Source of the DNA: Strigamia acuminata
Taxonomy: Eukaryota > Arthropoda > Chilopoda > Geophilomorpha > Linotaeniidae
NCBI GenBank assembly: GCA_949358305.1
Contig: OX442314.1
Coordinates: forward strand, 33,349,608-33,413,607
Length of the DNA: 64,000 bases
Direction: 5' to 3'
A program made the translations under genes and the position numbers. Below the pieces are notes generated by a model. It saw only the letters and a list, made by a program, of their open reading frames with translations. It was not told where the DNA came from and did no database searches. The first letter of the stretch is position 1, and every line of letters begins with the position of its first letter. Shown here piece by piece: positions 20,635 through 62,176 of the stretch.

Positions 20635-20638
20635 ATTG

Positions 20639-34173: not shown

Positions 34174-36834
34174 CATTCATGAAGAAGAAGGGGTTTAACA
34201 AAGGGTTCGATAAACCGCCACCAGTCAAAGAAATGGGTAGTGACATAGCTAACGCCCAGATCCAAGACAGGGCCAACAACGCTTTGCAGGTAATTACCGC
34301 AAACGCTGAGGCTGAGGCGGAAGAACCAAACCTACTGCTTGAAGAATTACCTCAAGTAGTCGAAGACACAGAAGAATTTCGTGTTTTCATGTGCAACGTG
34401 GCGGTCGAATATACCAGCCGCCTATGTATGCTGCCCATGACAATAGAACGCGAAAAAATTATGGGACTGCTAGACTCGGGAGCAGATCGCTCGTTCGTTT
34501 CCGAAGACATAGTAGCATCATTGGGTCTCACCGATAAGATAAAAGGCGTTAATAAAAATGTACGTCTAAAAACCGCCAACGGAATGGCGCGTCCAAAAGG
34601 AGTTATATTATTGACCATGGAGTGGCTCGGAGGGGTAGAACAGCACCCTTTCCTGGTCCTGCCCACGTGCGACAGAATTTTTCTGTTGGGCTTAGACCTC
34701 ATGGCGTCAATGGAAATACAACCAAATCCAATAACGAAATCTTGGAATTATATCAGAAATGATAGAGAAAGACCCGCAATTGTCGTGCCACCAGCTCTTA
34801 TCAAAGAAGCGGCCGACAAGACACAGTGGGAGAAAGGCCTAAAGAAATTCGTTCAAGACTACAATTTTAAAGCATTCGTAGCAGAATTGCAACGGGACAA
34901 TGTAGTGGAAACGCTTGTCGCCGACGCCGCTTTAGAATTAAACGAAGCGGCAGCCCTACGAAGGGTCCTACTTAAATATGAGGGGATCCTGTCGAAAAAA
35001 CCGGGCCGAACGAATAGGGCTATTCACGAGATTAAATTGACGGATAATAAACCTATACGAGTTGCGTATAAGGGAATGAATCCGCAAAAACGTGAAATAG
35101 TGCAAAAAATGTGCCAAGAAATGCTAGACAGTGGCATTGTCTCCGAGGCCCAGGGAGAATACGCGACGCGAGTTGTGCTCGTGATGCGCCCGGGCTCGGA
35201 CCCACGCCTATGCATTGATTACCGCCCATTAAACGCGGTGACAGAGATAGATCCCATACAGATGCCGTCTATCGAATCCATTTTGAGAGAGCTTAGCCCC
35301 TTTTCTTGGGTTACGACGATGGATCTGTCGAAGGGATACTGGCAAGTTGAGATGAGGCCAGAGGATAAGCTAAAAACAGCATTTTACTCGCCAATTGGAC
35401 GGTTGATGTTCAACGTCATGCCGTTTGGTTTAGTGAATGCTCCCAGTACCTTTCAGAGACTAATCGAAAGCGTATTGGGTGATATCCTGCATCAGTTCGT
35501 GTGGGCATACCTAGATGACATAGTTATTGCCTCTAAAACATTCGAAGAGCACATTGAGCACATCGACCAAGTGCTCACCCGGCTGGCGAAAGCTGGGTTA
35601 CACGTTCATCCGGGCAAGAGCAAGTTCTGCCGAAAGGAGCTTGCCTTCCTGGGTTATCGCATTGGAGTCAACGGTTTAGCTATTGGCCCCGAAAAAATCG
35701 ATGCGATTAATCGTTTCCCACCACCCGAGGACGTTAAAGGTGTCCAACGGTTTATGGGAATGATAAACTTCTTCGGCAGGTTGCTACCGGGTCTAGCTGA
35801 AGTGGCAGCCCCAGTTACCGACCTCCTGAAGAATGAAAACGAATTTGTATGGTCAAATGAGTGCAACATCGCATTTAATGCGATAAAGAGGATGCTGACG
35901 GAAGTCGGCGTAATGCCTCTACCCGACTTAAACCGGCCGTTCATATTACATACGGACGCCAGCAGAGTTGGGTTAGGAGCGGCGTTGCTCCAAACACACG
36001 TGCGCGACGGAGTCGAACAAGACCTGCCGTGCATGTTTATAAGTCGCAAACTCCAAGGCGCTGAAAAAAATTACAACGCCACAGAGTTGGAGTGTTTGGC
36101 AGTTGTGTGGGCTATAAGGAAATTCAGAGATTATCTCGAATATACCAAATTTGTAGTCCACACAGATCATCAAGCGTTACAATGGCTGATGAAATTAAAG
36201 GAGCCAGCCGGTCGACTAGCCAGATGGCAGTTAGAACTGATGGCATGCGACTTGACCATTCAATACAAGCCCGGCAAATATAACGTCGTGGCTGACGCTC
36301 TATCAAGGGCACCAGTGTCAGATCCTATCGACGCTGACGATGATGGCGAGGATGATTCCCGCATCATTTACTGCCCGACGAGTTGTCACCGTTGGGATTT
36401 AAGGAAAATAAATGAAATTCCCACCGCGTCTCCAGCAGATGTAAAATTCTGTGGATTCTGGACGCGGTTATACCAACCAGCTGCTGACAATTACCCAAAT
36501 GCAAAGAAGGAATTTAAGCTAGAGCGGAGAATAAATGACCCGCTTCTAAGCGCCTTCCACACTCATGTCGGCAAGCAAATGCGAAGCAATCCCCCGACAA
36601 GGGAGGAAATAATTGTGCAACAAAAATTAGACAAGAAATGTCAGGATAGAGCTAGATTCGTACTGACAGGAAAATATCCGCCCAACTTAACCAGAAGGCA
36701 GAAGCGTCGTTATGCACACGAATCCATAGATTACCTATTGGATGACGGCCTTTTGGTGAAACATCACCCAAATCACCAAGATGACTTGAGTGAATCGGAC
36801 ACCGCAGTAAAGGTAGTAATACCTGCTTCCTTAA
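34128..36834 (+). CDS. pol: Gypsy pol, 5' part (protease, reverse transcriptase, RNase H), interrupted
   Basis: The frame is -1 relative to gag and is open from the slippery site; the first ATG is at 34179. Counting from it, an aspartic protease active site LLDSGADRSF lies at 97-106. Reverse transcriptase follows, with FSWVTTMDLSKGYWQV, MPFGLVNAPSTFQR and the YLDD box at 444-447. RNase H follows, with ILHTDAS, the E in ATELECLAV, HTDHQALQW (about 660) and ADALSRAPV. The order PR-RT-RH is that of Ty3/Gypsy. The frame would continue into integrase but is cut at TTAA (36831-36834) by a 25.3-kb insertion. Read through, the insertion adds 17 unrelated residues and a stop at 36885-36887. Removing the insertion with one TTAA puts 62177 in frame. 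No other break is present, so the element was probably intact when hit. Confidence 0.93.
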
Positions 36835-37844
36835 CCTTATGGCGCGCATGCGGATTTCTCGGAGTGCGAAAGGGACCCTATTTTTAACATTACGGCGGCC
36901 TATACCTTGACCCCCTGTTCGCAGTCTCATGGCTGATTTTGCGGATTTCACTTATTTGTATATTCCGCACGATCGCGCGCGTTTTATCAACCTTGGGAAA
37001 GCCGCTTTCTCAAATTTGCAAATTCCACATTGTGTGAACATGCTACAACGCTTCTGTGCGCGTCAATAAAAAAAAAAACCGATTAGAAATGAAATTCAGG
37101 GTTTTGTTAAAATAAAAATTATACAATATAATCAGTCTATAATGCTTCTATAATGCTGTTGGTTTAATCAGCACATTGTAATCGTGTGAAAACACGCGCG
37201 CTCGCAATAATACATTACCCAATGTACTTGCACTGGCATGGACCCATCAGTGCGCACTTTCCCGTGCGTGCTGCTTGCACTATTTACATCAATTGTTGCT
37301 CCACAGGTTGCGCGACCTGCCGGGCAGTTAAGACGTACTAGAATAACCTCAGGATTTGATAAAACCTGATTTTTGGATGACACTAAGTAAATGGCAGTGA
37401 ATGTGAGATGTGAGATACACGATGAATTTAATAAAATTTATATTTCCTAATCATGGGATTGGTTTCACGTTTCATAATCCAACAATTAAGTAGAATATCA
37501 TTATTGCAATTGATTAAAACAAATTTTTTTTACAAATTCTTTGGTTTTACATTTTAAATTTATTTTCCAATAGTTGGCACCATCGCAATTGCTGCGAGTT
37601 TAAAACACTGCATTCAGCAGAATTTACTGCACTTTCAAATCAAGGCCAGGCATACCTACTGCAAAGTAATGTATAAACCATAAAGAAGCCTTTGATTCGG
37701 AATTGCCTGTAGGTAATTCTGCGCTGGTCTCCAATGGAAATGTCCGCGCCGGTCTTCCGTGCACGGGAAGTCCACAGAAAGTCCGTGCATTCCGTGCGCT
37801 GGGAGTCCGTGCGTCGTACCGCGTGATCTTGCATTGTTTTTTGT

Positions 37845-40800
37845 GGGCTTTTCCTGATTAGGATTACTTCCTTTTTAACTCTTGAAGAATTAAGTTTGTT
37901 TTTTTTGCTCCAAAACGTCCCAAAACGCCTGAAAATCGCGCAACTCGAGGCAAAACATTACAGTGTGTATTCAAATCAAAACTAGCTACAAATACATGCT
38001 GAAATTAGCTAAATTTTCAAATTTTTTGGCTTTCAAGAAGTAATGGAAACATTTGACATAACGTGGATCAGTTGCATTCAAAAACTAAAATATTTTGTGT
38101 TTTACTTCAATTTTAAACTAAAAATGATGTCATTTTCTGTTTAAACCCCTGTTAAAGCTTGAAATACATTTTAACTAAAAGAAATAAGTTTGTTTTTTTC
38201 TTCGGCAGTGACGTGTACACACGAGCACGCCTGAGAACGCCAAAAAATGCTAAAAAACGCTCAAAAACGCCTGAAAATCGCGCAACTCGAGGCAAAACAT
38301 TAATTTTTCATCTTTATTTCAACTTTTGTGACGTTTAAAATTGTGTTCTCATGTTTTTTGCCTCAAGTTGCATTGTCATCTGGCGTTTTGGAGTGTTTTT
38401 ATGTGTTCGCAGGCGTTCGCAGGCGTTTTTTGGCGTTGTCACTCACTCAAGTGGCCAATTTTAGCATTTTCCGTAGTAAAAATGGCCGTTTTTCGTCAAA
38501 ATGGCCATTTTTAGCCATTTTTCAGAGTAAAAATGTTTTTTTTTCACCGTTTTTATAGTAAAATGGCCATTTTTAGTCGTTTTTTTAATCAAAAATGGCC
38601 GTTTTTATCGTTGAAACGTTATTAAAATGTAACGTTTCAATGGCGTTTTGATCTCGCCTCATTTCCGGTTTTGAAAATTAATAAACGCCCCGGCGTTTAT
38701 TCGAGGCAACACCCAACTTGGGCTTTTATTCGCGTCGCACCGCATCATCATCTCACCTTGCCTCCCGTCTTGAAAATTTATAAACGCCCCGGCGTTTATT
38801 CAAGGCAAACCATTGTTTATGTAAGTTTTTCCTGATTAGGGTTACTTCCTTTAGAAGAAACACGTTTATTTCTTCTCGCTTAATCTTGAGTCGTGATCTC
38901 GCCTCGTTTCTGGTCTTAAAAATTAATAAACACCCCGGCTTTTATTCAAGGCAATACGGTACGTTTATGAAACCCAACTTGGGCTTTCATTTTAAAAAAA
39001 GCGCGTGTTCTTACGTCGAACTAAGAGATACAGGTGAATTAGCAACGCCTAATTTGATTTAATAAATAAAGCAAACAACATCTCGCCTCACTTCTGGCGT
39101 TTGTTCGAGGCAAGCCATTGTTTTTGCATTTTTTTTCCTGATTAGGGTTACTTCCTTTTTAACTCTTGAAGAAATAAGTATGTTTTTTTTACTCGGCAGT
39201 GACGTGTACGCGCGAGTACGCCTGAGAACGCCAAAAAATACTCCAAAACGCCTGAAAATCGTGCAACTCGAGGCAAAACATTAATTGTTTATTTTTGTTT
39301 CAACTTTTGTAACGTTTACAATTGTGTTCTCATGTTTTTTGCCTCAAGTTGCATTGTCATTTTGCGTTTTGGGGCGTTTTTAGGCATTTTTAGGCATTTG
39401 CGGGCGTTCTTGGGCGTTTTTTGGCGTTGTCATTCAATCAAATAGCCATTTTTAGCCATTTTTACCCATTTTTCATAGAAAAATGGTCATTTTTAGCCGT
39501 TTTTCATCCAAAATGGCCGTTTTTCATCCAAAAGGGCCGTTTTTCATCCAAAATGGAATAATTGTTGTGTCCGGATTTTATGTCATTTATTGTCTTAATT
39601 AAAGTTAACAAAGTGTCTTTAATTTTTGCTTTTCTTGAATTTCAGCTTTTTAGATATTTTTACATATTAAACTTTCATTTTTTGTGATTTATTAAAAGTT
39701 ACAGTGTTTTCATGAATTTTAGTGTCTATGATATTGATATTATCTTTATTCATTGCTATTTAAAGTTTTATTACTTCTCTGTGTCTTATTTCTTTAATTC
39801 TTGCTCATTTTGTGTGATTTTGGATGATTTTTAGTGCATCCGTCGATTTACAGATCACTTGCGTAAGACGCGTGACGTCATATTTCTTAATCTAGTTCGG
39901 TTGTGTTCAAACTTCTAACCTTTTGTTTGGACCTTATTCTTGTGTTATGGATAGGTTTTAGAATTGATTTAGACTAATTTGGGGGTGATCTGTCGATTGG
40001 TTTGCTTTATTTTTGTCCCGGAACGGTCGTTTTGTCGTTTCGAGCGTTTGTTGTCGGTACGCACTTGTGCGCTGCTGACCGAGTTCATTCCGTTCGGCAA
40101 ACGATTATTTTCAAGTGTTCTTTTAATAAATAGTGCTTTTGTTGTAGGAAATTACATTTCCTAATGTTATTTTATTCAATACAGTGTGTATTCTTGATTT
40201 TATTCTTGTGTTGAAATTCAAATGTCGTGTTTTGCCGCTCTAGCGGATTTGAAGTGGGCGCCATGTTGGATTTCCCCGCTAATTTCTTTATTTATCCATT
40301 TCATTTGTCTTTTTGAAAATGAATAAACGCCCCGGCGTTTATGCGAGGCAAGCCATAGTTTTTGTAGGTTCTTTCCTGATTAGGGTTACTTGTGACGTGC
40401 ACGCGCGAGCTCGCCTGAGGACGCCAAAAAAAGCTCAAAAACGCCCCAAAACGCCTGAAAATCGCGCAACTCGAAGCAAAAAATTACAGTTTGAATTCAA
40501 ATCAAAACTAACCACAAATACATGCTACAATTAGGTAAATTTTCAAATTTTTTATCAATAAATGATGACTTTCAAGAAGTATGACAACATTTGACAAAAT
40601 TTAGACCAGTTGCATTTAAAAACTAAAATATTTTGTGTTTTACTTCAATTTTAAACCAAAAATGACGTCATTTTTTGTTTAAACCGGCGTTTATTTGAGG
40701 CAAACACGCCGCTGAGAACGCCAAAAAATGCTCAAAAACACTCCAAAAGACCTGAAAATCGCGCAACTTGAGGCAAAAAATTAATTTTTCATCTTTGTTT

Positions 40801-42060
40801 CAACTTTTGTGACGTTTAAAATTGTGTTTTCAAGTTTTATGCCTCAAGTTGCATTGTCATCTGGCGTTTTGGGGCGTTTTGGGGCGTTCGCAGGCGTTTG
40901 CACGCGTTTTTTGGCGTTGTCACTCACTCAAGTGGCCATTTTTAGCCAATTTTCGAAGTAAAAATGGCCTTTTTTTATTAAAATGGCCATTTTCAGCCAT
41001 TTGTCATAGTAAAAATGGCCATTTTCAGCCATTTTTTATAGTAAAAATGGCCATTTTTCATCCAAAATGGCCGTTTTTCATCCAAAATGACCATTTTTAT
41101 CATTGACACGCTATAAAAATGTAACGTTTCAATGGCGTTTTGACGGAACCGGTAAGTTTTGAAATTTCCCGTGTCCCGTTATTGTGACTCCTCGTCCGGT
41201 TTCTCAGAACCGAAACCCTAATACAGGTGAATTAGTGACGCCTAATTTGTTTTAACAAATAAAGCAAACAACATCTCGCCTCACTTCCAGTCTTGAAAAT
41301 TAGTAAACGCCCCGGCGTTTATTCGAGGCAAGCCGTTGTTTTTACAGTAATTTCCTGGTTAGGGTTATTTTTTTTTTAACTCTTGAAGAAATAAGTTTGT
41401 TTTTTTCTCGCCTGCACGCGCGAGCTCGCATGAGAATGCTAAAAAATAAGCAAAAACGTTCTAAAACGCCCCAAAACGCTTCAAAATGCTCCAAAAAGCC
41501 TGAAAATCGTGCCACTCAAAGCAAAAAATTATGTTCGCATGTTTTTTGCCTCAAGTTGCACGGTTATCTGGCGTTTTGGTGCGTTCTTGGGGCGTTTTGG
41601 TGCGTTCTTGGGGCGTTTTCGGGCGTTTTTTTGGCGTTGTCACTCACTCCCACACTTTGCTGTCTTGTTTATTACAATTTGGTTTAGCTGTTGTATTTAT
41701 TTTTATTTGTTTTATGGTTATTTAATGTGTTTTTGTAGCATTCAAAATGTTTTGTTGCCTAATTTCTCGTTTTGGCGCCAACTGTTTGTTTGACAACGCC
41801 GTGTCAGAATTTAGGGATGATTCTGCTTTGGTTTCTAATTAAAAAAAAAATGTTGTTTTAATTTCAATTGTAACTGCTTATTATAACGTTATTATTAGTA
41901 TTTTGTAAAGGTTCATTCTTTTTCCATGTTAATAAAAAATGAAGTAACTTTCGGTGAAAAAAAAAACAGTTAAATGCGGATCAAAATTAAACACACACGA
42001 GAAGTTTAATAAACGTCCCGGCGTTTATTCGAGGCAATACGGTACATTTGTGAAACCCAA
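37845..42060 (+). repeat. ACGCC hairpin modules and AAACGCC/GGCGTTT palindromes, unit 1
   Basis: A module recurs about five times (38.2, 39.2, 40.4, 40.7 and 41.4 kb). Its left arm is rich in ACGCCAAAAA / CTCAAAAACGCC and ends CAACTCGAGGCAAAA. Its right arm starts TTTTGCCTCAAGTTGCA and is rich in GGCGTTTTGG and GGCGTTTTTTGGCGTTGTCA. The arms can pair. AAACGCCCCGGCGTTT with a trailing ATTCGAGGCAA occurs at about 38684, 38784, 40324, 41304 and, with a change, 42010. Blocks of ATGGCCATTTTTAGCC repeats follow some right arms. Confidence 0.8.
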
Positions 42061-43328
42061 CTTGGAACCCGAAAATAACGTGGGGCCGTCTGAACACCTG
42101 GATTTGAATTTTCGTCTACGCGCGCGCCGACGCATGGGGAATGCGGGGTGGGGTTCCTTCCCAGTGTTCCGAACGAGTCAATTTCACCCCGAAAATATCC
42201 CGAAATTGCTGATACATGCATTTCGAGCCAGAAATATTGATCTTCATGTAAATTTTGATTGTTTAGCTTTTTTTTGAAATTTTACAAATTTTTCTCATCT
42301 CCTGCCTTCCTCGCTCATTTAACACCAAAATGGCCTGCATTGAGGATTTTTCCCATAATCCTTTTCACACGTATGGAGCGCAAACAGTCGCAATAAATGA
42401 AATCAGCGGAATTCGGCCTTGAGTTTGCGACGCCATCTTGAATACGAGTAACAGCACAGTATGGTGTCAATTATTCGAACTGATCGTAAGGCATGGGACA
42501 AAAATTGATTAAAAACGAACAAACATGATTAAAAATCAACAAAAATCGACTGAAATCGGACAATAATCAATTCAGAATGACAAATAACGATTAAAATTGG
42601 CAAAAATTGTCACAAATAGAGAAAAACCGATTAAAAATCAGCAAGAAACCAATAGAAATTGATAAAATCAAATAAAAATTAACAAATATCCATTTTGTTT
42701 GCTTTTAAACAAATTAAGAACTTTGAAAACACACGACAATTTTAAACAGTAAACACCGGGGTCAAATAAGCGCCGCTACTCGTTTAAACACCGGGGAGGT
42801 GTTAGTGAAGTGCCTCGAGTGGAGAAATTAATAAACGCTCGAGGCACCACGGTAGGCTTATTAAACACAAAATATGAAACGCTCGATCTTCAACAGGCGC
42901 ACACGCCCGAGAACACCTCGGCATGCCTCAGCACTCTCCAAGAAACGAGAAAAACCAAGGCAAAAAAAAAAAAATACACCAAAATTAGGACTAAAATCAA
43001 ACACACATGGGGCCCGGAAGATTGATAACATCCCGGCATATATTCAAGGCAGTACGCCATGTTTTTTCCACCATTTTGTAAGTTTATTTCAATATTCATA
43101 AAGTTTATTGCTTTTTGTATCATTAGTAGTATTCCCTTGTGTGATGTGGTTTTATAAATATCACACACAACTGCTTCTGCTGTTTTCTTCACGTTTATGC
43201 TTCGTGTATGCACGTGAAGCCCTCGCACATCTTTTGAGCACCTGTACACATTTGGACACGCTCAAGGTGCTACATCGCGCGCTCAAACGCACTAGATCGC
43301 GCGCGCAAACGCGCTACATCACGCATAT
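42061..43328. other. AT-rich filler of unit 1
   Basis: No gene. Degenerate GATTAAAAATCAACAAAAA-type words fill 42500-42670, and CGCGCTCAAACGC / CGCGCGCAAACGC repeats precede the MITE at 43270-43320. Confidence 0.5.
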
Positions 43329-43720
43329 TAGGGATAAGAACGGACCGGGATAGGGACTGGACTGGTAATGTTTGCCCTATGCGGATACGGGACGGGACGG
43401 GATTACAGTTGCTAAATTCGTACTGCGAGGCGGAGACAATTTTCTAATTCCAGTTGTTATTTATCACTATTAAGCCTAATATTGAGCCTGATAATGCTAA
43501 AATAAAGTAAATAAACAACAACAACAAACTCATTATTAAAAGTAAATTACACTGTATGACCAAAATATTGTTGTTTCTTTACTTTATTTTAGCATTATTA
43601 GGCCTAATATTAGGCTTAATACTGATTTATTTCAATTATGCAATCATACGCGCGTATTACGCTAACGTAATGGACCCGGGACGGGTCGGGACCCGAAAAT
43701 TGGTCCCGTTCTCATCCCTA
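43329..43720. mobile_element. 392-bp snapback hAT MITE inside unit 1
   Basis: The ends TAGGGATAAGAACGG and CCCGTTCTCATCCCTA are inverted, and the interior is also self-complementary (GCTAAAATAAAGTAAA against TTTACTTTATTTTAGC). An exact 8-bp duplication ACGCATAT flanks it (43313-43328 region: 43321-43328; and 43721-43728). This is the hAT pattern. Confidence 0.88.
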
Positions 43721-43728
43721 ACGCATAT

Positions 43729-45590
43729 ATATCGCAGACATATCGCGCCCACGACAAAGCACAAACCCATGGCAGTCACCAAAGAATATTTACGCCGCTT
43801 CCACGCACGTTTTATTTTCTCACAGGCCTCTACACATTTAACTTGCGCGCGCACTTGCTACGTGCTCGTGTGGTCACAATAAATACCTAATTTTCATTAA
43901 AATAACGAATGAACGAAATCACTTCAACCACACTTGCTACGGTCGACGCATCGACGGCGATTCGCATGCGTTACCCCAAATACCGATCAAAAATCGCAGA
44001 AAACACTAATCCCGACCCAAAAACCGCCAAAATTACCCTCAACACACCCCAACAACCTTCCACCACTTAAATTACACCGGAAAAAAAACAATTTCAAACC
44101 GAAAAATCAACAAAAAAGGCCAAAAAAATATTGCAAACAAAGAGAAAAGATCAATTATCGAGGCAAATCCCCACCACAAAACAACGCATCGCCGGTAAAC
44201 ACTTAAGCGTACAGTGCACAACACTACTGTTTATTTTCAATGATCCAATAAATAAAATTTGAAACAAAGTTGAGTGGAATTGTACGTTTCTTGTATATTA
44301 AAGTTTTTATTTTGTTTGTTTACACTTAATTTTTTTTTTCCATCATAGAATGGCGACTCGATACTTTTGTAGCTCGAATTCACTTCGTAAACGTAATCGG
44401 TGTTCATCACGCGTCAATGCGCTCGTGCAATAGTATAGGCGCGCATACGATTTGATGCGCGCAAAACTTGCAAAACTTGCACGGAATTTGGGCAATTTTT
44501 GACAATTTTCAGCAGATTTTTGCCTGTATTTGACAAATTTCAGAAGATTTTTGCCTATATTTGACAAATTTCAGAAGATTTCCTCAATCCTCAAACATTT
44601 GCTGAAATTTCTCATAAAATTTCTAAAATTAATTGAAATTTGTCTGAAATTTGTCTGCAATTTGTCAAATATTGTCAAAAATCCGTGGAAATTTGTCAAA
44701 TACTGGCAAAAATCCATGTAAATTTGTCAAAAATTGCCATAATTCGGTGCAAATTGTGTTAGACATTGGAAAAATTTATTTTAACGCTTCCAACGCGCCA
44801 GTAAATCGCGCGTGCACACGCGTGGATTTTTCGTCATAGTTGGATGCGCGCAAACCTCACGTAACTTGCGCCAAAATTTGGCAATTTTTGACAAATTTCA
44901 GCAGATTTTTGCCAGTATTTGACAAATTTCCACTGATTTTTGACAATATTTGACCCAACAACTGCGCCACGTTCCAGGCGCCGGTTTAGGCATTTTAGAC
45001 CCGTTTTAGACCGTTTTAGATGGCGAAAACGTTCTCTCCATCATTTTCTACCCCTGGGTGAGGTTTTCAGCGTTCATGATTGATGAAAAAGCTGTTTTCT
45101 AACTAGCTGTCCCATTGCTAGTTTTGGCGTCAGGTTTTAGCAACCTTCCGATCCGACTCTGTCGTCTGCACGACCTCCAAGACCGTTTTAGGGTTAATTT
45201 GAGTCAAATAATTCATTCTGGGATTGTTTTGGGTTTTTTACAAGTGTGTTTTTGTAGTTTTTATTGGTTTCAAACATTGTCAATTCTTTATACAAGTGTA
45301 ACTTTCATTTCTCTGTATTTTGAGAACTTTGCATTGCAGCAAAGTTCATTTCTTGCCCCTTAATTATTGTGTAATTGTTGGTTTTCAAGCCCGTTTTTTA
45401 ACAATAACTTTATTTGAAGTGCCTATTGTTTCAGGCACGTGCTTCCACGTGCCTTTTATTGTTGAGCAATTTCTTGGGCAGTTGCGCTCCTGTTGCTAGC
45501 ATTACCGCGCGTTCTCCGCGCGCGTACTCGCGCGTTTCGCATCACACACATTCGGGTTCAATGGCCTATCGCGGCGGCACATTGTGTGGC
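43729..45590. other. non-coding middle of unit 1 with TTTGACAAATTTC repeats
   Basis: From 44480 to 44960 the words TTTGACAAATTTCAG and ATTTTTGCC recur at a period near 35 bp. Short frames elsewhere show no recognisable protein. Confidence 0.5.
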
Positions 45591-45594
45591 ATAG

Positions 45595-45690
45595 CGCGGC
45601 ACGTTGCAATTACGTGACGTGGCACGTTGCTGTTACGTGACGCAATAGCCAGTATTTAAGCAGGGGATTCCATCATCGTTTACACAAATG
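45595..45690 (+). promoter_or_regulatory. promoter-like patch before the palindromic block, unit 1
   Basis: Two TTACGTGACG-type sites (45610-45620 and 45633-45643, CRE/E-box-like), a GGCACGTTGC repeat, and then TATTTAAG (45653-45660) about 30 bp ahead of a TTCCATCATCG start-like site. Transcription from here would run straight into the hairpin-forming repeats. Confidence 0.4.
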
Positions 45691-45744
45691 CGCATTGCAA
45701 CGTGGAGGCGCATTCGAGTCCTTTTCCCAAGCGTTGAAAAAGGA

Positions 45745-46060
45745 CAAAACTCGTATTCGATTCGAAAGCGAATCGAATACGATTTTTGTCCTTTTTCAAC
45801 GCAAAATTGTATTCGATTCGCTTTCGAATCGAATACGAGTTTTGCCCTTCTTCAACGCGAAATCGTATTCGACTCGTTTTCGAGTCGAATGCGAATTTTG
45901 CCCTTCTTCAACGCGAAATCGTATTCGACTCGCTTTCGAATCGAATACGAGTTTTGCCCTTCTTCAACGCGAAATCGTATTCGACTCGTTTTCGAGTCGA
46001 GTACGAATTTTGCCCTTCTTCAACGCGAAATCGTATTCGATTCGCTTTCGAATCGTATAC
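45745..46060 (+). repeat. 56-bp palindromic repeat array, left arm, unit 1
   Basis: About five units, each with ATTCGACTCG-TTTT-CGAGTCGAAT (a near-perfect palindrome) joined by TTTTGCCCTTCTTCAACGCG. The orientation is opposite to the array at 48349. Confidence 0.88.
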
Positions 46061-46069
46061 GAGATGGTC

Positions 46070-48330: not shown

Positions 48331-48348
48331 CGACCATCTCGTATACGA

Positions 48349-49030: not shown

Positions 49031-49392
49031 GAGATCATTTTTTGATCTGGGTCGTGAATGCGTCCGTATGTCACGCGAACGCGTGTTGGAGTCGATTCCG
49101 AGTTCGTATTCCATCTTGAACGCGCATTGGAGACGTAAACCAGTTTATTTTACCCACTCTCGCTCGATCCCGCTTCATCGCTCCTTGTCGCTCCTGTGAA
49201 AAAAAATACATGAGAATGTGCAGAAATGAACCTTCCAATACTCACATGAAAATTGACAACCTTGACACAAAACAGTCTATTGACACTCCCAACACCACCC
49301 CGGACGTTTTCCGGAAGAGTTTGGTCCACCCGGAATCCCCAGAATAGTCGCCCCCGAAATGCGGATTTCACGGAAGCCAATCCGCGAAAAGG

Positions 49393-49446
49393 ATATGTTT
49401 TTAGCGGCGCGCCGACGCGTCCGCCACGCCCGTCTGGAGAGCTTAA
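49393..49446. other. 54-bp spacer between the two units
   Basis: The spacer starts ATATG directly after unit 1 and ends in TTAA directly before unit 2. It is GC rich in the middle (GCGGCGCGCCGACGCGTCC). It is not found at either outer edge of the insertion. Confidence 0.75.
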
Positions 49447-50456
49447 CCTTATGGCGCGCATGCGGATTTCTCGGAGTGCGAAAGGGACCCTATTTTTAAC
49501 ATTACGGCGGCCTATACCTTGACCCCCTGTTCGCAGTCTCATGGCTGATTTTGCGGATTTCACTTATTTGTATATTCCGCACGATCGCGCGCGTTTTATC
49601 AACCTTGGGAAAGCCGCTTTCTCAAATTTGCAAATTCCACATTGTGTGAACATGCTACAACGCTTCTGTGCGCGTCAATAAAAAAAAAACCGATTAGAAA
49701 TGAAATTCAGGGTTTTGTTAAAATAAAAATTATACAATATAATCAGTCTATAATGCTTCTATAATGCTGTTGGTTTAATCAGCACATTGTAATCGTGTGA
49801 AAACACGCGCGCTCGCAATAATACATTACCCAATGTACTTGCACTGGCATGGACCCATCAGTGCGCACTTTCCCGTGCGTGCTGCTTGCACTATTTACAT
49901 CAATTGTTGCTCCACAGGTTGCGCGACCTGCCGGGCAGTTAAGACGTACTAGAATAACCTCAGGATTTGATAAAACCTGATTTTTGGATGACACTAAGTA
50001 AATGGCAGTGAATGTGAGATGTGAGATACACGATGAATTTAATAAAATTTATATTTCCTAATCATGGGATTGGTTTCACGTTTCATAATCCAACAATTAA
50101 GTAGAATATCATTATTGCAATTGATTAAAACAAATTTTTTTTACAAATTCTTTGGTTTTACATTTTAAATTTATTTTCCAATAGTTGGCACCATCGCAAT
50201 TGCTGCGAGTTTAAAACACTGCATTCAGCAGAATTTACTGCACTTTCAAATCAAGGCCAGGCATACCTACTGCAAAGTAATGTATAAACCATAAAGAAGC
50301 CTTTGATTCGGAATTGCCTGTAGGTAATTCTGCGCTGGTCTCCAATGGAAATGTCCGCGCCGGTCTTCCGTGCACGGGAAGTCCACAGAAAGTCCGTGCA
50401 TTCCGTGCGCTGGGAGTCCGTGCGTCGTACCGCGTGATCTTGCATTGTTTTTTGTG

Positions 50457-53400
50457 GGCTTTTCCTGATTAGGATTACTTCCTTTTTAACTCTTGAAGAA
50501 TTAAGTTTGTTTTTTTTGCTCCAAAACGTCCCAAAACGCCTGAAAATCGCGCAACTCGAGGCAAAACATTACAGTGTGTATTCAAATCAAAACTAGCTAC
50601 AAATACATGCTGAAATTAGCTAAATTTTCAAATTTTTTGGCTTTCAAGAAGTAATGGAAACATTTGACATAACGTGGATCAGTTGCATTCAAAAACTAAA
50701 ATATTTTGTGTTTTACTTCAATTTTAAACTAAAAATGATGTCATTTTCTGTTTAAACCCCTGTTAAAGCTTGAAATACATTTTAACTAAAAGAAATAAGT
50801 TTGTTTTTTTCTTCGGCAGTGACGTGTACACACGAGCACGCCTGAGAACGCCAAAAAATGCTAAAAAAACGCTCAAAAACGCCTGAAAATCGCGCAACTC
50901 GAGGCAAAACATTAATTTTTCATCTTTATTTCAACTTTTGTGACGTTTAAAATTGTGTTCTCATGTTTTTTGCCTCAAGTTGCATTGTCATCTGGCGTTT
51001 TGGAGTGTTTTTATGTGTTCGCAGGCGTTCGCAGGCGTTTTTTGGCGTTGTCACTCACTCAAGTGGCCAATTTTAGCATTTTCCGTAGTAAAAATGGCCG
51101 TTTTTCGTCAAAATGGCCATTTTTAGCCATTTTTCAGAGTAAAAATGTTTTTTTTTCACCGTTTTTATAGTAAAATGGCCATTTTTAGTCGTTTTTTTAA
51201 TCAAAAATGGCCGTTTTTATCGTTGAAACGTTATTAAAATGTAACGTTTCAATGGCGTTTTGATCTCGCCTCATTTCCGGTTTTGAAAATTAATAAACGC
51301 CCCGGCGTTTATTCGAGGCAACACCCAACTTGGGCTTTTATTCGCGTCGCACCGCATCATCATCTCACCTTGCCTCCCGTCTTGAAAATTTATAAACGCC
51401 CCGGCGTTTATTCAAGGCAAACCATTGTTTATGTAAGTTTTTCCTGATTAGGGTTACTTCCTTTAGAAGAAACACGTTTATTTCTTCTCGCTTAATCTTG
51501 AGTCGTGATCTCGCCTCGTTTCTGGTCTTAAAAATTAATAAACACCCCGGCTTTTATTCAAGGCAATACGGTACGTTTATGAAACCCAACTTGGGCTTTC
51601 ATTTTAAAAAAAGCGCGTGTTCTTACGTCGAACTAAGAGATACAGGTGAATTAGCAACGCCTAATTTGATTTAATAAATAAAGCAAACAACATCTCGCCT
51701 CACTTCTGGCGTTTGTTCGAGGCAAGCCATTGTTTTTGCATTTTTTTTCCTGATTAGGGTTACTTCCTTTTTAACTCTTGAAGAAATAAGTATGTTTTTT
51801 TTACTCGGCAGTGACGTGTACGCGCGAGTACGCCTGAGAACGCCAAAAAATACTCCAAAACGCCTGAAAATCGTGCAACTCGAGGCAAAACATTAATTGT
51901 TTATTTTTGTTTCAACTTTTGTAACGTTTACAATTGTGTTCTCATGTTTTTTGCCTCAAGTTGCATTGTCATTTTGCGTTTTGGGGCGTTTTTAGGCATT
52001 TTTAGGCATTTGCGGGCGTTCTTGGGCGTTTTTTGGCGTTGTCATTCAATCAAATAGCCATTTTTAGCCATTTTTACCCATTTTTCATAGAAAAATGGTC
52101 ATTTTTAGCCGTTTTTCATCCAAAATGGCCGTTTTTCATCCAAAAGGGCCGTTTTTCATCCAAAATGGAATAATTGTTGTGTCCGGATTTTATGTCATTT
52201 ATTGTCTTAATTAAAGTTAACAAAGTGTCTTTAATTTTTGCTTTTCTTGAATTTCAGCTTTTTAGATATTTTTACATATTAAACTTTCATTTTTTGTGAT
52301 TTATTAAAAGTTACAGTGTTTTCATGAATTTTAGTGTCTATGATATTGATATTATCTTTATTCATTGCTATTTAAAGTTTTATTACTTCTCTGTGTCTTA
52401 TTTCTTTAATTCTTGCTCATTTTGTGTGATTTTGGATGATTTTTAGTGCATCCGTCGATTTACAGATCACTTGCGTAAGACGCGTGACGTCATATTTCTT
52501 AATCTAGTTCGGTTGTGTTCAAACTTCTAACCTTTTGTTTGGACCTTATTCTTGTGTTATGGATAGGTTTTAGAATTGATTTAGACTAATTTGGGGGTGA
52601 TCTGTCGATTGGTTTGCTTTATTTTTGTCCCGGAACGGTCGTTTTGTCGTTTCGAGCGTTTGTTGTCGGTACGCACTTGTGCGCTGCTGACCGAGTTCAT
52701 TCCGTTCGGCAAACGATTATTTTCAAGTGTTCTTTTAATAAATAGTGCTTTTGTTGTAGGAAATTACATTTCCTAATGTTATTTTATTCAATACAGTGTG
52801 TATTCTTGATTTTATTCTTGTGTTGAAATTCAAATGTCGTGTTTTGCCGCTCTAGCGGATTTGAAGTGGGCGCCATGTTGGATTTCCCCGCTAATTTCTT
52901 TATTTATCCATTTCATTTGTCTTTTTGAAAATGAATAAACGCCCCGGCGTTTATGCGAGGCAAGCCATAGTTTTTGTAGGTTCTTTCCTGATTAGGGTTA
53001 CTTGTGACGTGCACGCGCGAGCTCGCCTGAGGACGCCAAAAAAAGCTCAAAAACGCCCCAAAACGCCTGAAAATCGCGCAACTCGAAGCAAAAAATTACA
53101 GTTTGAATTCAAATCAAAACTAACCACAAATACATGCTACAATTAGGTAAATTTTCAAATTTTTTATCAATAAATGATGACTTTCAAGAAGTATGACAAC
53201 ATTTGACAAAATTTAGACCAGTTGCATTTAAAAACTAAAATATTTTGTGTTTTACTTCAATTTTAAACCAAAAATGACGTCATTTTTTGTTTAAACCGGC
53301 GTTTATTTGAGGCAAACACGCCGCTGAGAACGCCAAAAAATGCTCAAAAACACTCCAAAAGACCTGAAAATCGCGCAACTTGAGGCAAAAAATTAATTTT

Positions 53401-54672
53401 TCATCTTTGTTTCAACTTTTGTGACGTTTAAAATTGTGTTTTCAAGTTTTATGCCTCAAGTTGCATTGTCATCTGGCGTTTTGGGGCGTTTTGGGGCGTT
53501 CGCAGGCGTTTGCACGCGTTTTTTGGCGTTGTCACTCACTCAAGTGGCCATTTTTAGCCAATTTTCGAAGTAAAAATGGCCTTTTTTTATTAAAATGGCC
53601 ATTTTCAGCCATTTGTCATAGTAAAAATGGCCATTTTCAGCCATTTTTTATAGTAAAAATGGCCATTTTTCATCCAAAATGGCCGTTTTTCATCCAAAAT
53701 GACCATTTTTATCATTGACACGCTATAAAAATGTAACGTTTCAATGGCGTTTTGACGGAACCGGTAAGTTTTGAAATTTCCCGTGTCCCGTTATTGTGAC
53801 TCCTCGTCCGGTTTCTCAGAACCGAAACCCTAATACAGGTGAATTAGTGACGCCTAATTTGTTTTAACAAATAAAGCAAACAACATCTCGCCTCACTTCC
53901 AGTCTTGAAAATTAGTAAACGCCCCGGCGTTTATTCGAGGCAAGCCGTTGTTTTTACAGTAATTTCCTGGTTAGGGTTATTTTTTTTTTAACTCTTGAAG
54001 AAATAAGTTTGTTTTTTTCTCGCCTGCACGCGCGAGCTCGCATGAGAATGCTAAAAAATAAGCAAAAACGTTCTAAAACGCCCCAAAACGCTTCAAAATG
54101 CTCCAAAAAGCCTGAAAATCGTGCCACTCAAAGCAAAAAATTATGTTCGCATGTTTTTTGCCTCAAGTTGCACGGTTATCTGGCGTTTTGGTGCGTTCTT
54201 GGGGCGTTTTGGTGCGTTCTTGGGGCGTTTTCGGGCGTTTTTTTGGCGTTGTCACTCACTCCCACACTTTGCTGTCTTGTTTATTACAATTTGGTTTAGC
54301 TGTTGTATTTATTTTTATTTGTTTTATGGTTATTTAATGTGTTTTTGTAGCATTCAAAATGTTTTGTTGCCTAATTTCTCGTTTTGGCGCCAACTGTTTG
54401 TTTGACAACGCCGTGTCAGAATTTAGGGATGATTCTGCTTTGGTTTCTAATTAAAAAAAAAATGTTGTTTTAATTTCAATTGTAACTGCTTATTATAACG
54501 TTATTATTAGTATTTTGTAAAGGTTCATTCTTTTTCCATGTTAATAAAAAATGAAGTAACTTTCGGTGAAAAAAAAAACAGTTAAATGCGGATCAAAATT
54601 AAACACACACGAGAAGTTTAATAAACGTCCCGGCGTTTATTCGAGGCAATACGGTACATTTGTGAAACCCAA
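50457..54672 (+). repeat. ACGCC hairpin modules and palindromes, unit 2
   Basis: Copy of the 37845-42060 block in the same order. One extra A occurs in the first GCTAAAAAAACGC word (about 50862). Confidence 0.8.
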
Positions 54673-55940
54673 CTTGGAACCCGAAAATAACGTGGGGCCG
54701 TCTGAACACCTGGATTTGAATTTTCGTCTACGCGCGCGCCGACGCATGGGGAATGCGGGGTGGGGTTCCTTCCCAGTGTTCCGAACGAGTCAATTTCACC
54801 CCGAAAATATCCCGAAATTGCTGATACATGCATTTCGAGCCAGAAATATTGATCTTCATGTAAATTTTGATTGTTTAGCTTTTTTTTGAAATTTTACAAA
54901 TTTTTCTCATCTCCTGCCTTCCTCGCTCATTTAACACCAAAATGGCCTGCATTGAGGATTTTTCCCATAATCCTTTTCACACGTATGGAGCGCAAACAGT
55001 CGCAATAAATGAAATCAGCGGAATTCGGCCTTGAGTTTGCGACGCCATCTTGAATACGAGTAACAGCACAGTATGGTGTCAATTATTCGAACTGATCGTA
55101 AGGCATGGGACAAAAATTGATTAAAAACGAACAAACATGATTAAAAATCAACAAAAATCGACTGAAATCGGACAATAATCAATTCAGAATGACAAATAAC
55201 GATTAAAATTGGCAAAAATTGTCACAAATAGAGAAAAACCGATTAAAAATCAGCAAGAAACCAATAGAAATTGATAAAATCAAATAAAAATTAACAAATA
55301 TCCATTTTGTTTGCTTTTAAACAAATTAAGAACTTTGAAAACACACGACAATTTTAAACAGTAAACACCGGGGTCAAATAAGCGCCGCTACTCGTTTAAA
55401 CACCGGGGAGGTGTTAGTGAAGTGCCTCGAGTGGAGAAATTAATAAACGCTCGAGGCACCACGGTAGGCTTATTAAACACAAAATATGAAACGCTCGATC
55501 TTCAACAGGCGCACACGCCCGAGAACACCTCGGCATGCCTCAGCACTCTCCAAGAAACGAGAAAAACCAAGGCAAAAAAAAAAAAATACACCAAAATTAG
55601 GACTAAAATCAAACACACATGGGGCCCGGAAGATTGATAACATCCCGGCATATATTCAAGGCAGTACGCCATGTTTTTTCCACCATTTTGTAAGTTTATT
55701 TCAATATTCATAAAGTTTATTGCTTTTTGTATCATTAGTAGTATTCCCTTGTGTGATGTGGTTTTATAAATATCACACACAACTGCTTCTGCTGTTTTCT
55801 TCACGTTTATGCTTCGTGTATGCACGTGAAGCCCTCGCACATCTTTTGAGCACCTGTACACATTTGGATACGCTCAAGGTGCTACATCGCGCGCTCAAAC
55901 GCACTAGATCGCGCGCGCAAACGCGCTACATCACGCATAT

Positions 55941-56332
55941 TAGGGATAAGAACGGACCGGGATAGGGACTGGACTGGTAATGTTTGCCCTATGCGGATAC
56001 GGGACGGGACGGGATTACAGTTGCTAAATTCGTACTGCGAGGCGGAGACAATTTTCTAATTCCAGTTGTTATTTATCACTATTAAGCCTAATATTGAGCC
56101 TGATAATGCTAAAATAAAGTAAATAAACAACAACAACAAACTCATTATTAAAAGTAAATTACACTGTATGACCAAAATATTGTTGTTTCTTTACTTTATT
56201 TTAGCATTATTAGGCCTAATATTAGGCTTAATACTGATTTATTTCAATTATGCAATCATACGCGCGTATTACGCTAACGTAATGGACCCGGGACGGGTCG
56301 GGACCCGAAAATTGGTCCCGTTCTCATCCCTA
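55941..56332. mobile_element. 392-bp snapback hAT MITE inside unit 2
   Basis: Same ends and the same ACGCATAT duplication (55933-55940 and 56333-56340) as in unit 1, so it inserted before the unit was duplicated. Confidence 0.88.
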
Positions 56333-58206
56333 ACGCATATATATCGCAGACATATCGCGCCCACGACAAAGCACAAACCCATGGCAGTCACCAAAGAATA
56401 TTTACGCCGCTTCCACGCACGTTTTATTTTCTCACAGGCCTCTACACATTTAACTTGCGCGCGCACTTGCTACGTGCTCGTGTGGTCACAATAAATACCT
56501 AATTTTCATTAAAATAACGAATGAACGAAATCACTTCAACCACACTTGCTACGGTCGACGCATCGACGGCGATTCGCATGCGTTACCCCAAATACCGATC
56601 AAAAATCGCAGAAAACACTAATCCCGACCCAAAAACCGCCAAAATTACCCTCAACACACCCCAACAACCTTCCACCACTTAAATTACACCGGAAAAAAAA
56701 CAATTTCAAACCGAAAAATCAACAAAAAAGGCCAAAAAAATATTGCAAACAAAGAGAAAAGATCAATTATCGAGGCAAATCCCCACCACAAAACAACGCA
56801 TCGCCGGTAAACACTTAAGCGTACAGTGCACAACACTACTGTTTATTTTCAATGATCCAATAAATAAAATTTGAAACAAAGTTGAGTGGAATTGTACGTT
56901 TCTTGTATATTAAAGTTTTTATTTTGTTTGTTTACACTTAATTTTTTTTTTCCATCATAGAATGGCGACTCGATACTTTTGTAGCTCGAATTCACTTCGT
57001 AAACGTAATCGGTGTTCATCACGCGTCAATGCGCTCGTGCAATAGTATAGGCGCGCATACGATTTGATGCGCGCAAAACTTGCAAAACTTGCACGGAATT
57101 TGGGCAATTTTTGACAATTTTCAGCAGATTTTTGCCTGTATTTGACAAATTTCAGAAGATTTTTGCCTATATTTGACAAATTTCAGAAGATTTCCTCAAT
57201 CCTCAAACATTTGCTGAAATTTCTCATAAAATTTCTAAAATTAATTGAAATTTGTCTGAAATTTGTCTGCAATTTGTCAAATATTGTCAAAAATCCGTGG
57301 AAATTTGTCAAATACTGGCAAAAATCCATGTAAATTTGTCAAAAATTGCCATAATTCGGTGCAAATTGTGTTAGACATTGGAAAAATTTATTTTAACGCT
57401 TCCAACGCGCCAGTAAATCGCGCGTGCACACGCGTGGATTTTTCGTCATAGTTGGATGCGCGCAAACCTCACGTAACTTGCGCCAAAATTTGGCAATTTT
57501 TGACAAATTTCAGCAGATTTTTGCCAGTATTTGACAAATTTCCACTGATTTTTGACAATATTTGACCCAACAACTGCGCCACGTTCCAGGCGCCGGTTTA
57601 GGCATTTTAGACCCGTTTTAGACCGTTTTAGATGGCGAAAACGTTCTCTCCATCATTTTCTACCCCTGGGTGAGGTTTTCAGCGTTCATGATTGATGAAA
57701 AAGCTGTTTTCTAACTAGCTGTCCCATTGCTAGTTTTGGCGTCAGGTTTTAGCAACCTTCCGATCCGACTCTGTCGTCTGCACGACCTCCAAGACCGTTT
57801 TAGGGTTAATTTGAGTCAAATAATTCATTCTGGGATTGTTTTGGGTTTTTTACAAGTGTGTTTTTGTAGTTTTTATTGGTTTCAAACATTGTCAATTCTT
57901 TATACAAGTGTAACTTTCATTTCTCTGTATTTTGAGAACTTTGCATTGCAGCAAAGTTCATTTCTTGCCCCTTAATTATTGTGTAATTGTTGGTTTTCAA
58001 GCCCGTTTTTTAACAATAACTTTATTTGAAGTGCCTATTGTTTCAGGCACGTGCTTCCACGTGCCTTTTATTGTTGAGCAATTTCTTGGGCAGTTGCGCT
58101 CCTGTTGCTAGCATTACCGCGCGTTCTCCGCGCGCGTACTCGCGCGTTTCGCATCACACACATTCGGGTTCAATGGCCTATCGCGGCGGCACATTGTGTG
58201 GCATAG

Positions 58207-58302
58207 CGCGGCACGTTGCAATTACGTGACGTGGCACGTTGCTGTTACGTGACGCAATAGCCAGTATTTAAGCAGGGGATTCCATCATCGTTTACACAAA
58301 TG
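58207..58302 (+). promoter_or_regulatory. promoter-like patch before the palindromic block, unit 2
   Basis: Identical copy of the ACGTGACG pair and TATTTAAG arrangement (TATTTAAG at 58265-58272). Confidence 0.4.
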
Positions 58303-58356
58303 CGCATTGCAACGTGGAGGCGCATTCGAGTCCTTTTCCCAAGCGTTGAAAAAGGA

Positions 58357-58672
58357 CAAAACTCGTATTCGATTCGAAAGCGAATCGAATACGATTTTTG
58401 TCCTTTTTCAACGCAAAATTGTATTCGATTCGCTTTCGAATCGAATACGAGTTTTGCCCTTCTTCAACGCGAAATCGTATTCGACTCGTTTTCGAGTCGA
58501 ATGCGAATTTTGCCCTTCTTCAACGCGAAATCGTATTCGACTCGCTTTCGAATCGAATACGAGTTTTGCCCTTCTTCAACGCGAAATCGTATTCGACTCG
58601 TTTTCGAGTCGAGTACGAATTTTGCCCTTCTTCAACGCGAAATCGTATTCGATTCGCTTTCGAATCGTATAC
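58357..58672 (+). repeat. 56-bp palindromic array, left arm, unit 2
   Basis: Copy of 45745-46060, with about five units and no visible change. Confidence 0.87.
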
Positions 58673-58681
58673 GAGATGGTC

Positions 58682-60942
58682 GATTTTTGTTTCCCGGACT
58701 TTGATTCGTATTCGAGTTGTTACGAGTTCGTATTTTGATCGTATTCGTATTCGAATCGAATTCGAATCGTATTCGAATCGAATACGAATCGAATTCGAGT
58801 CGTATTCGAGATGGTCGATGATTTCCACTCGCTCGTATACGCGTTGTATACGAGCTCGTATTTTGATCGTAATCGTAAACGAATCGTTTACAAGTCGTAT
58901 ACAAGTTGTATACGACGTGTATACACCTCGTATACGAACGAAGTTTGTGAAAACACAATTTCCAAATAAGACGTATGTGACTACTATGTGTTTTCATGTC
59001 GTAGTAAGTATCCGGTGGATTTTCCAAACTTCGTTCGTATACGAGGTGTATACACGTCGTATACAACTTGTATACGACTTGTAAACGATTCGTTTACGAT
59101 TACGATCAAAATACGAGCTCGTATACAACGCGTATACGAGCGAGTGGAAATCATCGACCATCTCGAATGCGACTCGAATTCGATTAGTATTCGATTCGAA
59201 TACGATTCGAATTCGATTCGAATACGAATACGATCAAAATACGAACTCGTAACAACTCGAATACGAGATAGTCGATGACCCGTTCCCGGACTTTGACTCG
59301 TACGACTCGTATTCGAGATGTATTCGAGATGTATTCGAATCGTATTCGAGTCGCATTCGAGATGGTCGATGATTTCCACTCGCTCGTATACGCGTTGTAT
59401 ACGAGCTCGTATTTTGATCGTAATCGTAAACGAATCGTTTACAAGTCGTATACAAGTCGTATACGACGTGTATACACCTCGTATACGAACGAAGTTTGGA
59501 AAATCCACCGGACACTTACTACGACATGAAAACACATAGTAGTCACATACGTCTTATTTGGAAATTGTGTTTTCACAAACTTCGTTCGTATACGAGGTGT
59601 ATACACGTCGTATACGACTTGTATACGACTTGTAAACGATTCGTTTACGATTACGATCAAAATACGAGCTCGTATACAACGCGTATACGAGCGAGTGGAA
59701 ATCATCGACCATCTCGAATACGACTCGAATTCGATTAGTATTCGATTCGAATACGATTCGAATTCGATTCGAATACGAATACGATCAAAATACGAACTCG
59801 TAACAACTCGAATACGAGATAGTCGATGACCCGTTCCCGGACTTTGACTCGTACGACTCGTATTCGAGATGTATTCGAGATGTATTCGAATCGTATTCGA
59901 GTCGCATTCGAGATGGTCGATGATTTCCACTCGCTCGTATACGCGTTGTATACGAGCTCGTATTTTGATCGTAATCGTAAACGAATCGTTTACAAGTCGT
60001 ATACAAGTCGTATACGACGTGTATACACCTCGTATACGAACGAAGTTTGGAAAATCCACCGGACACTTACTACGACATGAAAACACATAGTAGTCACATA
60101 CGTCTTATTTGGAAATTGTGTTTTCACAAACTTCGTTCGTATACGAGGTGTATACACGTCGTATACGACTTGTATACGACTTGTAAACGATTCGTTTACG
60201 ATTACGATCAAAATACGAGCTCGTATACAACGCGTATACGAGCGAGTGGAAATCATCGACCATCTCGAATACGACTCGAATTCGATTAGTATTCGATTCG
60301 AATACGATTCGAATTCGATTCGAATACGAATACGATCAAAATACGAACTCGTAACAACTCGAATACGAGATAGTCGATGACCCGTTCCCGGACTTTGACT
60401 CGTACGACTCGTATTCGAGATGTATTCGAGATGTATTCGAATCGTATTCGAGTCGCATTCGAGATGGTCGATGATTTCCACTCGCTCGTATACGCGTTGT
60501 ATACGAGCTCGTATTTTGATCGTAATCGTAAACGAATCGTTTACAAGTCGTATACAAGTCGTATACGACGTGTATACACCTCGTATACGAACGAAGTTTG
60601 GAAAATCCACCGGACACTTACTACGACATGAAAACACATAGTAGTCACATACGTCTTATTTGGAAATTGTGTTTTCACAAACTTCGTTCGTATACGAGGT
60701 GTATACACGTCGTATACGACTTGTATACGACTTGTAAACGATTCGTTTACGATTACGATCAAAATACGAGCTCGTATACAACGCGTATACGAGCGAGTGG
60801 AAATCATCGACCATCTCGAATACGACTCGAATTCGATTCGTATTCGATTCGAATACGATTCGAATTCGATTCGAATACGAATACGATCAAAATACGAACT
60901 CGTAACAACTCGAATACAAATCAAAGTCCGGGAAACAAAAAT
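58682..60942. repeat. 551-bp palindromic repeats, unit 2
   Basis: Markers GAAAATCCACCGGACACTTA at 59499, 60050 and 60601. The segment at about 59178-59357 reads in the opposite direction to its unit 1 counterpart, with matching flanks on both sides. Confidence 0.87.
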
Positions 60943-60960
60943 CGACCATCTCGTATACGA

Positions 60961-61810
60961 TTCGAAAGCGAATCGAATACGATTTCGCGTTGAAGAAGGG
61001 CAAAATTCGCATTCGACTCGAAAACGAGTCGAATACGAATTCGCATTCGACTCGAAAACGAGTCGAATACGATTTCGCGTTGAAGAAGGGCAAAATTCGC
61101 ATTCGACTCGAAAACGAGTCGAATACGATTTCGCGTTGAAGAAGGGCAAAACTCGCATTCGACTCGAAAACGAGTCGAATACGATTTCGCGTTGAGAAAG
61201 GGCAAAATTCGCATTCGACTCGAAAACGAGTCGAATACGATTTCGCGTTGAAGAAGGGCAAAACTCGCATTCGACTCGAAAACGAGTCGAATACGATTTC
61301 GCATTCGACTCGAAAACGAGTCGAATACGATTTCGCGTCGAAGAAGGGCAAAATTCGCATTCGACTCGAAAACGAGTCGAATACGATTTCGCGTTGAAGA
61401 AGGGCAAAACTCGCATTCGACTCGAAAACGAGTCGAATACGATTTCGCGTTGAGAAAGGGCAAAATTCGCATTCGACTCGAAAACGAGTCGAATACGATT
61501 TCGCGTTGAGAAAGGGCAAAATTCGCATTCGACTCGAAAACGAGTCGAATACGATTTCGCGTTGAAGAAGGGCAAAACTCGCATTCGACTCGAAAACGAG
61601 TCGAATACGATTTCGCGTTGAGAAAGGGCAAAATTCGCATTCGACTCGAAAACGAGTCGAATACGATTTCGCGTTGAAGAAGGGCAAAACTCGCATTCGA
61701 CTCGAAAACGAGTCGAATACGATTTCGCATTCGACTCGAAAACGAGTCGAATACGATTTCGCGTCAAAGAAGGGCAAAATTTGCATTCGACTCGAAAACG
61801 AGTCGAATAC
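60961..61810 (-). repeat. 56-bp palindromic array, right arm, unit 2 (about 15 units)
   Basis: Same unit types as in unit 1 with three more units. The extra units sit among the GAGAAAGGG variants around 61440-61620, where unit 1 has fewer. Confidence 0.88.
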
Positions 61811-62176
61811 GAGATCATTTTTTGATCTGGGTCGTGAATGCGTCCGTATGTCACGCGAACGCGTGTTGGAGTCGATTCCGAGTTCGTATTCCATCTTGAA
61901 CGCGCATTGGAGACGTAAACCAGTTTATTTTACCCACTCTCGCTCGATCCCGCTTCATCGCTCCTTGTCGCTCCTGTGAAAAAAAATACATGAGAATGTG
62001 CAGAAATGAACCTTCCAATACTCACATGAAAATTGACAACCTTGACACAAAACAGTCTATTGACACTCCCAACACCACCCCGGACGTTTTCCGGAAGAGT
62101 TTGGTCCACCCGGAATCCCCAGAATAGTCGCCCCCGAAATGCGGATTTCACGGAAGCCAATCCGCGAAAAGGTTAA

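Follow-up and report, generated by a model that had tools for sequence, protein, structure and literature searches.

The DNA analysed here, called the window throughout, is a stretch of 64,000 nucleotides from the centipede Strigamia acuminata (G000:C1:33349608-33413607). Coordinates are positions in the window unless a contig (C1, C3 and so on) is named, and the genome searches covered 237,517,015 bp in 157 contigs. Positions 36831-62176 consist of two head-to-tail noncoding units with a spacer between them, inserted at a TTAA site in the pol gene of a Gypsy retrotransposon. The features of the locus are as follows.

34098..36834, + strand: 5' part of the Gypsy pol of the interrupted element (protease, reverse transcriptase, RNase H)
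36831..36834, + strand: left TTAA copy of the target site, seen in the sequence
36835..49392, + strand: unit 1, 12,558 bp, noncoding, from CCTTATGGCGCG... to ...CCGCGAAAAGG (alignment and scan of open reading frames)
45748..49033, + strand: satellite and palindrome block of unit 1, with TCGAATACGA-type repeats and near-palindromes about 551 bp apart
49393..49442, + strand: 50-bp junction spacer, variant V1, starting with ATAT; its 17-bp core GCGGCGCGCCGACGCGT is common to four variants
49443..49446, + strand: internal TTAA ahead of unit 2
49447..62172, + strand: unit 2, 12,726 bp, near-identical to unit 1, with 168 bp more satellite and an inverted loop at about unit position 9734-9908
58360..61813, + strand: satellite and palindrome block of unit 2, with inverted arms of up to 643 bp
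62173..62176, + strand: right TTAA copy of the target site
62177..63591, + strand: 3' part of the Gypsy pol (integrase), continuing in frame

Joining the two flanks brought the Gypsy pol frame back (VVIPASLIGRVLWLLHGHPLASH), which bears out a first-pass annotation, made from the letters alone, that had proposed a TTAA at both edges and a split Gypsy pol. The sequence inside the left TTAA begins CCTTATGG..., that inside the right TTAA ends ...CGCGAAAAGG, and the end motifs of the element are CCTTATGGCG on the left and CCTTTTCGCG on the right. Two units of about 12.6 kb had also been described, and their end-to-end alignment gave the two lengths listed above; setting aside the inverted loop block and the 168-bp difference in satellite copies, the units are distinguished by 2 substitutions and two 1-bp indels. 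The earlier picture of two joined units thus held for the tandem pair and differs at the inner join, which has a 50-bp spacer ahead of the TTAA. The palindromic interior was found as described, with the inverted arms of the satellite showing 97% identity over as much as 643 bp.

The claim that the units lack coding capacity stood as well. The longest stop-to-stop frame measured 126 amino acids inside a unit and outside the satellite, and 137 amino acids across the junction, while frames of up to 462 amino acids in the satellite are translations of its repeats and lay outside the Pfam scan. No match at the Pfam cut-off was obtained for 13 open reading frames (ORFs) taken from the units outside the satellite, one of which spans the junction. 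No transposase or viral gene was found in the unit, longer unit variants having been read in part only, and since the ORFs that were read contained no transposase, the element was filed as non-autonomous. An Rfam scan of the window gave no match at gathering scores, and IMG/VR, scanned twice for the unit ends, gave 0 matches.

The same ends were found elsewhere in the genome, in single and tandem arrangement and beside TTAA. Searching with 26 bases of the left end including the TTAA, at most 2 mismatches being allowed, returned 283 genomic places, with 0 for a reversed control; the corresponding search with 21 bases of the right end including the TTAA, with at most 1 mismatch, returned 176 places and 0 for its control. 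For each end, 100 places were listed. At 12.6 kb apiece, 283 copies would amount to about 3.6 Mb, an estimated 1.5% or so of the genome. Over 1.4 kb of the left end, 53 copies showed a mean difference of 0.093% and a maximum of 0.29%, in a sample biased to the best matches that leaves out L022 and L039 (rearranged), six repeats of one place and L036 (the window itself). The sampled copies are very young.

The bases beside the right end bear on the kind of transposase involved. Among the 100 right ends listed, 53 carried an exact TTAA, 30 carried ATAA, 15 had another change in the first or last base of the TTAA, and 2 had changes in the body of the end; the inner TA was altered in none. All 15 of the listed one-letter departures other than ATAA thus changed an outer base and kept the TA, which is the piggyBac pattern. 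Thirty of the 53 exact right ends were cut out, and two of these (L072 and L075) proved to be rearranged joints rather than outer flanks. At four of the places with ATAA that were read (L091, L102, L104, L112), this motif marks an internal join of longer units, and at L103 a different sequence follows the right end. As a separate observation, an ORF translation at L112 (C1:24401001-24406000), a longer unit variant, resembles by eye that of the window ORF 3708-4088, which lies outside the insert. Eight of the 15 other departures were read: L098 is a fusion of a right and a left end, and at L094, L095, L096, L097, L099, L100 and L101 the right end runs on into other sequence, which we read as host DNA. 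For L094 and L103 the left partner was read as well (L093 and L110, respectively), and both partners carry TTAA.

Departures of piggyBac from TTAA include CTAA/TTAG and ATAA/TTAT (PMC6651600, PMC3983033; these and the other papers are cited here from excerpts), and piggyBac ends follow a CCYT rule (PMC5601938), which the CCTT at both unit ends fits. Membership of piggyBac, suggested in the first-pass annotation as a likeness, is accordingly supported by the TTAA target, by the CCYT ends and by the way in which flanks depart from the target.

Tandem arrangement was frequent. A 180-bp junction query, which held the window-type right end, matched over its full length at 96-100% in 40/40 places scored among 799 candidates. 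In a left-end search that scored 40 of 542 candidates, 30 loci were cut out, and the sequence before the left end was the spacer junction in 16, other DNA in 13 and a rearranged joint in 1. The 99 exact left ends on C1-C9 include 20 pairs of neighbours on one strand with spacings of 10-25 kb; outside the window, neighbouring left ends lay 11.5-22.1 kb apart. An array with three left ends at C1:28.86-28.90M is 38,175 bp long and closes with a TTAA. Five frame joins were made, of which those at the window and at a Copia reverse transcriptase (RT) site at C1:64.2M restored a known frame, and that at C1:58.1M gave one open frame.

The four spacer variants share the constant 17-bp core; V2 departs from V1 only beside the right end, and V3 and V4 only beside the left end. 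V2 is accompanied by a second type of right end that is 90% like that of the window over 342 bp, and because of this pairing the spaced junction probably predates the recent burst. A third right-end type, 91% alike over the last 274 bp and unrelated beyond, occurred at 8 outer ends and was absent from the junctions found, the junction query having carried the window-type right end. At L108 (C1:45735128), the left end has just the right half of the spacer in front of it.

Taken together, these data make it probable that a two-unit array was recently inserted in the window, and that it belongs to a piggyBac-type family of Strigamia acuminata that is very young, high in copy number and non-autonomous. 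Cutting at the two outermost ends would be done by a transposase supplied from elsewhere, and the entire array, 25.3 kb here, would enter one TTAA as a single piece; we infer that a piggyBac transposase acts in trans. The inner right end borders ATAT in place of TTAA, so that the array would tend to be handled as one element, and recombination between units could then alter the unit number in place.

The first-pass annotation had also suggested that the pair moved, or was duplicated, as one, and the comparison of dimers favours joint movement. The dimers at C3:28.64M and C8:11.71M have unlike flanks and a common first-unit length of 13,360 bp. When 76 right segments of 1,400 bp from L001-L090 were compared (one locus was counted twice), the unit-1 segments of these two dimers were mutually identical and matched none of the others exactly; the same single-nucleotide polymorphism (SNP) separates the unit-1 from the unit-2 segments in both, and the unit-2 segments are identical in both loci. 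In length, the second units differ by 534 bp. Since dimers at unrelated sites share both a first-unit length and a SNP confined to unit 1, dimers probably move as one piece of 25-27 kb. The dimer at C1:60.39M, which has other flanks, takes a first step of 12,612 bp as in the window and totals 25,178 bp, the 25,346 bp of the window minus 168.

The alternative with most in its favour is that only single units transpose and that dimers form later, either by recombination of a circle of unit plus spacer into a monomer or by unequal crossing over, so that the 25-kb piece never jumps. At C1:58.07M, both 1,400-bp right segments of a dimer are identical and at least 161 edits from any other segment compared, which argues for local duplication, and in the array at C1:64.17M two neighbouring right ends are identical and one SNP off the common form. 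Units also occur with no listed neighbour, and the one at C1:61.94M, at 15,981 bp, is just as long as unit 2 of the dimer at C1:24.39M. Small piggyBac arrays of miniature inverted-repeat transposable elements (MITEs) have moreover been attributed to slippage (PMC2872659). Signs of both joint movement and in-place growth are thus seen among the loci. However, as an account of all dimers this alternative leaves the common first-unit length and the unit-1-only SNP at C3:28.64M and C8:11.71M, with their unrelated flanks, standing against it, and we hold it as a tentative possibility.

A further alternative is that the transposase also uses internal ends of arrays in reversed-ends transposition, and that this, not plain recombination, builds and reshapes arrays. 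The array at C1:64172737-64213528 (L021, L022, L052, L071, L072) sits in the Copia RT, where the joined flanks restore the frame. Between its first two units, A and B, at C1:64.20M, the spacer is missing and unit B begins with 595 bp in inverted orientation; each of the two new joints has TTAA next to an intact end sequence. On the simplest reading, the right end of one unit together with the left end of the next would have inserted into a TTAA of that next unit. At L075 (C3:6607214), the sequence runs from a right end through TTAA into an inverted spacer and on to a second right end, so that the two right ends stand tail to tail. In maize, tandem direct duplications arise by reversed-ends transposition, in which the ends of two neighbouring copies are likewise used and target duplications appear at the new joints, but the elements concerned there are hAT elements with 8-bp duplications, compared with TTAA in the two cases here (PMC3744419). 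As there are just these two cases, and all 40 scored junctions retain the spacer over the whole match, internal ends appear unlikely to be the general builders of arrays.

Several observations weigh against the preferred reading of a piggyBac-type array inserted as one piece. The array structure rests on the assembly, and at the sites read both units of the C1:60.39M dimer match unit 1 of the window. Frame joins at C3:3.82M and C3:28.64M yielded no telling frame. The piggyBac superfamily has terminal inverted repeats of 12-19 bp, and those of the present unit are minimal: 8/10 end bases agree by eye, and a comparison over 80 bp was at chance level. Clean TTAA boundaries, as claimed earlier, held for the window and for other loci, among them the two left partners read, but on C1 an exact TTAA is missing from about half of the outer right flanks that can be counted: 12 are TTAA and 12 are NTAA or TTAN, two rearranged or fused joints being left out, with 8 of the latter 12 read and 15 ATAA places (4 read as internal joins, 11 unread) outside the count. 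This share exceeds the 2% and 7% reported for piggyBac insertion at non-TTAA sites; one of the two sources also describes many non-TTAA sites in mouse pancreas (PMC6651600, PMC3983033). Finally, no piggyBac gene of the genome was tied to these ends, and on C1 5/23 of the genes in piggyBac groups 2 and 3 had a unit end no more than 60 kb away, compared with 8% at random, and their arrangement was not constant.

An autonomous piggyBac with the same ends, which the first-pass annotation had proposed to look for, did not emerge, the left end of one compact family having been read; piggyBac genes themselves were numerous. A genome search with PF13843 (DDE_Tnp_1_7) gave at least 131 matches, 116 of 346 candidates being scored, and sorting them gave four compact and nearly whole genes, three of them without internal stops, and two large groups of near-identical copies. 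Six small contigs carry two same-direction piggyBac copies 49-59 kb apart, and further same-direction pairs occur on C61, with a spacing of 28.5 kb, and on C5, with one of 31.8 kb. One compact family with an open 632-amino-acid frame was tried as the helper and rejected, as its left end starts TTAACACTAGAA and reads TTAACACTAGAACGG, unlike the unit ends (551 bases read, which stop short of its right end).

The near-identical gene groups and same-direction pairs also offer a hint for an improbable further reading, in which a larger mobile or virus-like DNA has the unit as its satellite and carries a piggyBac transposase that inserts concatemers at TTAA, though nothing ties these genes to the unit ends. 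By analogy with defective amplicons that follow a helper, the role of the spacer core and of the palindromic block would then lie in replicating or processing head-to-tail concatemers.

An assembly artefact, in which the assembler chained near-identical units, is very unlikely. The units differ by very few bases, and 12.6 kb is near the usual length of a HiFi read, both of which would suit such an error. Against it stand the spaced junction at all 40 scored places and the outer ends of several arrays in other DNA, and the assembly was built from 98-fold HiFi data with a quality value (QV) of 59.6 (PMC10556566). A Kolobok-type element would account for TTAA and for multimers, those of KolobokP carrying target duplications at their outer edges only, but this scarcely credible identity is contradicted by the termini, 5'-RR...YY-3' in Kolobok (PMC9587614) versus 5'-CC...GG-3' here, and what lies between the units is a 50-bp spacer instead of shared direct repeats of 450 or 660 bp.

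Set beside known systems, this is probably a giant, non-autonomous, tandem-forming piggyBac-type family. With the piggyBac superfamily and its MITEs it shares the TTAA target, the CCYT ends and the type of departures, but a noncoding unit of 12.6 kb with hardly any inverted repeat past 10 bp sets it apart, and it is not the short element that a MITE is by definition. In coral, a full-length piggyBac example measures 3,668 bp and MITEs about 100 bp; the CMITE arrays there (PMC2872659) and the piggyBac arrays of Aedes (Adelman 2004, as cited in PMC2872659) are likewise piggyBac-related tandems with similar sequence between the units. As piggyBac-type elements of about 100 bp are already known in tandem, the tandem arrangement as such is not new, whereas CMITE units are of that small size and the excerpt makes no claim that an array moves in one piece. 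KolobokP has in common the outer-edge target duplications of multimers and the composite build, but has ends of another type, 450/660-bp direct repeats, and a transposase and a nuclease (PMC9587614). Teratorn resembles the present element in its piggyBac-type ends, very large size and internal copies of the ends, but holds a transposase and herpesvirus genes, while no gene was found in the unit (PMC5601938). Literature searches for piggyBac elements in tandem, of giant size or both long and non-autonomous, and for piggyBac in Strigamia, showed no description of this element among the papers listed. Gene-less cut-and-paste elements are normally tiny; here they measure at least 12.6 kb, often stand in arrays of 25-38 kb, and can be counted by 283 left ends. 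The family thus offers a natural test of the size limits on cut-and-paste elements and of how tandem arrays originate and move.

Two minor observations concern other sequences of the window. A weak THOC7-like stretch lies inside the unit at 55365-55637 (E 8e-4, below the cut-off); it gave no PDB match, both THOC7 matches of the genome are on C3, and it is possibly a captured exon. Outside the insert, a nearby gag ORF gave no match at E 0.001 as a protein query, and the gag-like ORF 22923-24122 is flanked by 634-bp direct repeats at 20007-20640 and 27327-27960; the repeats are 99% alike and are probably the long terminal repeats of another retrotransposon.

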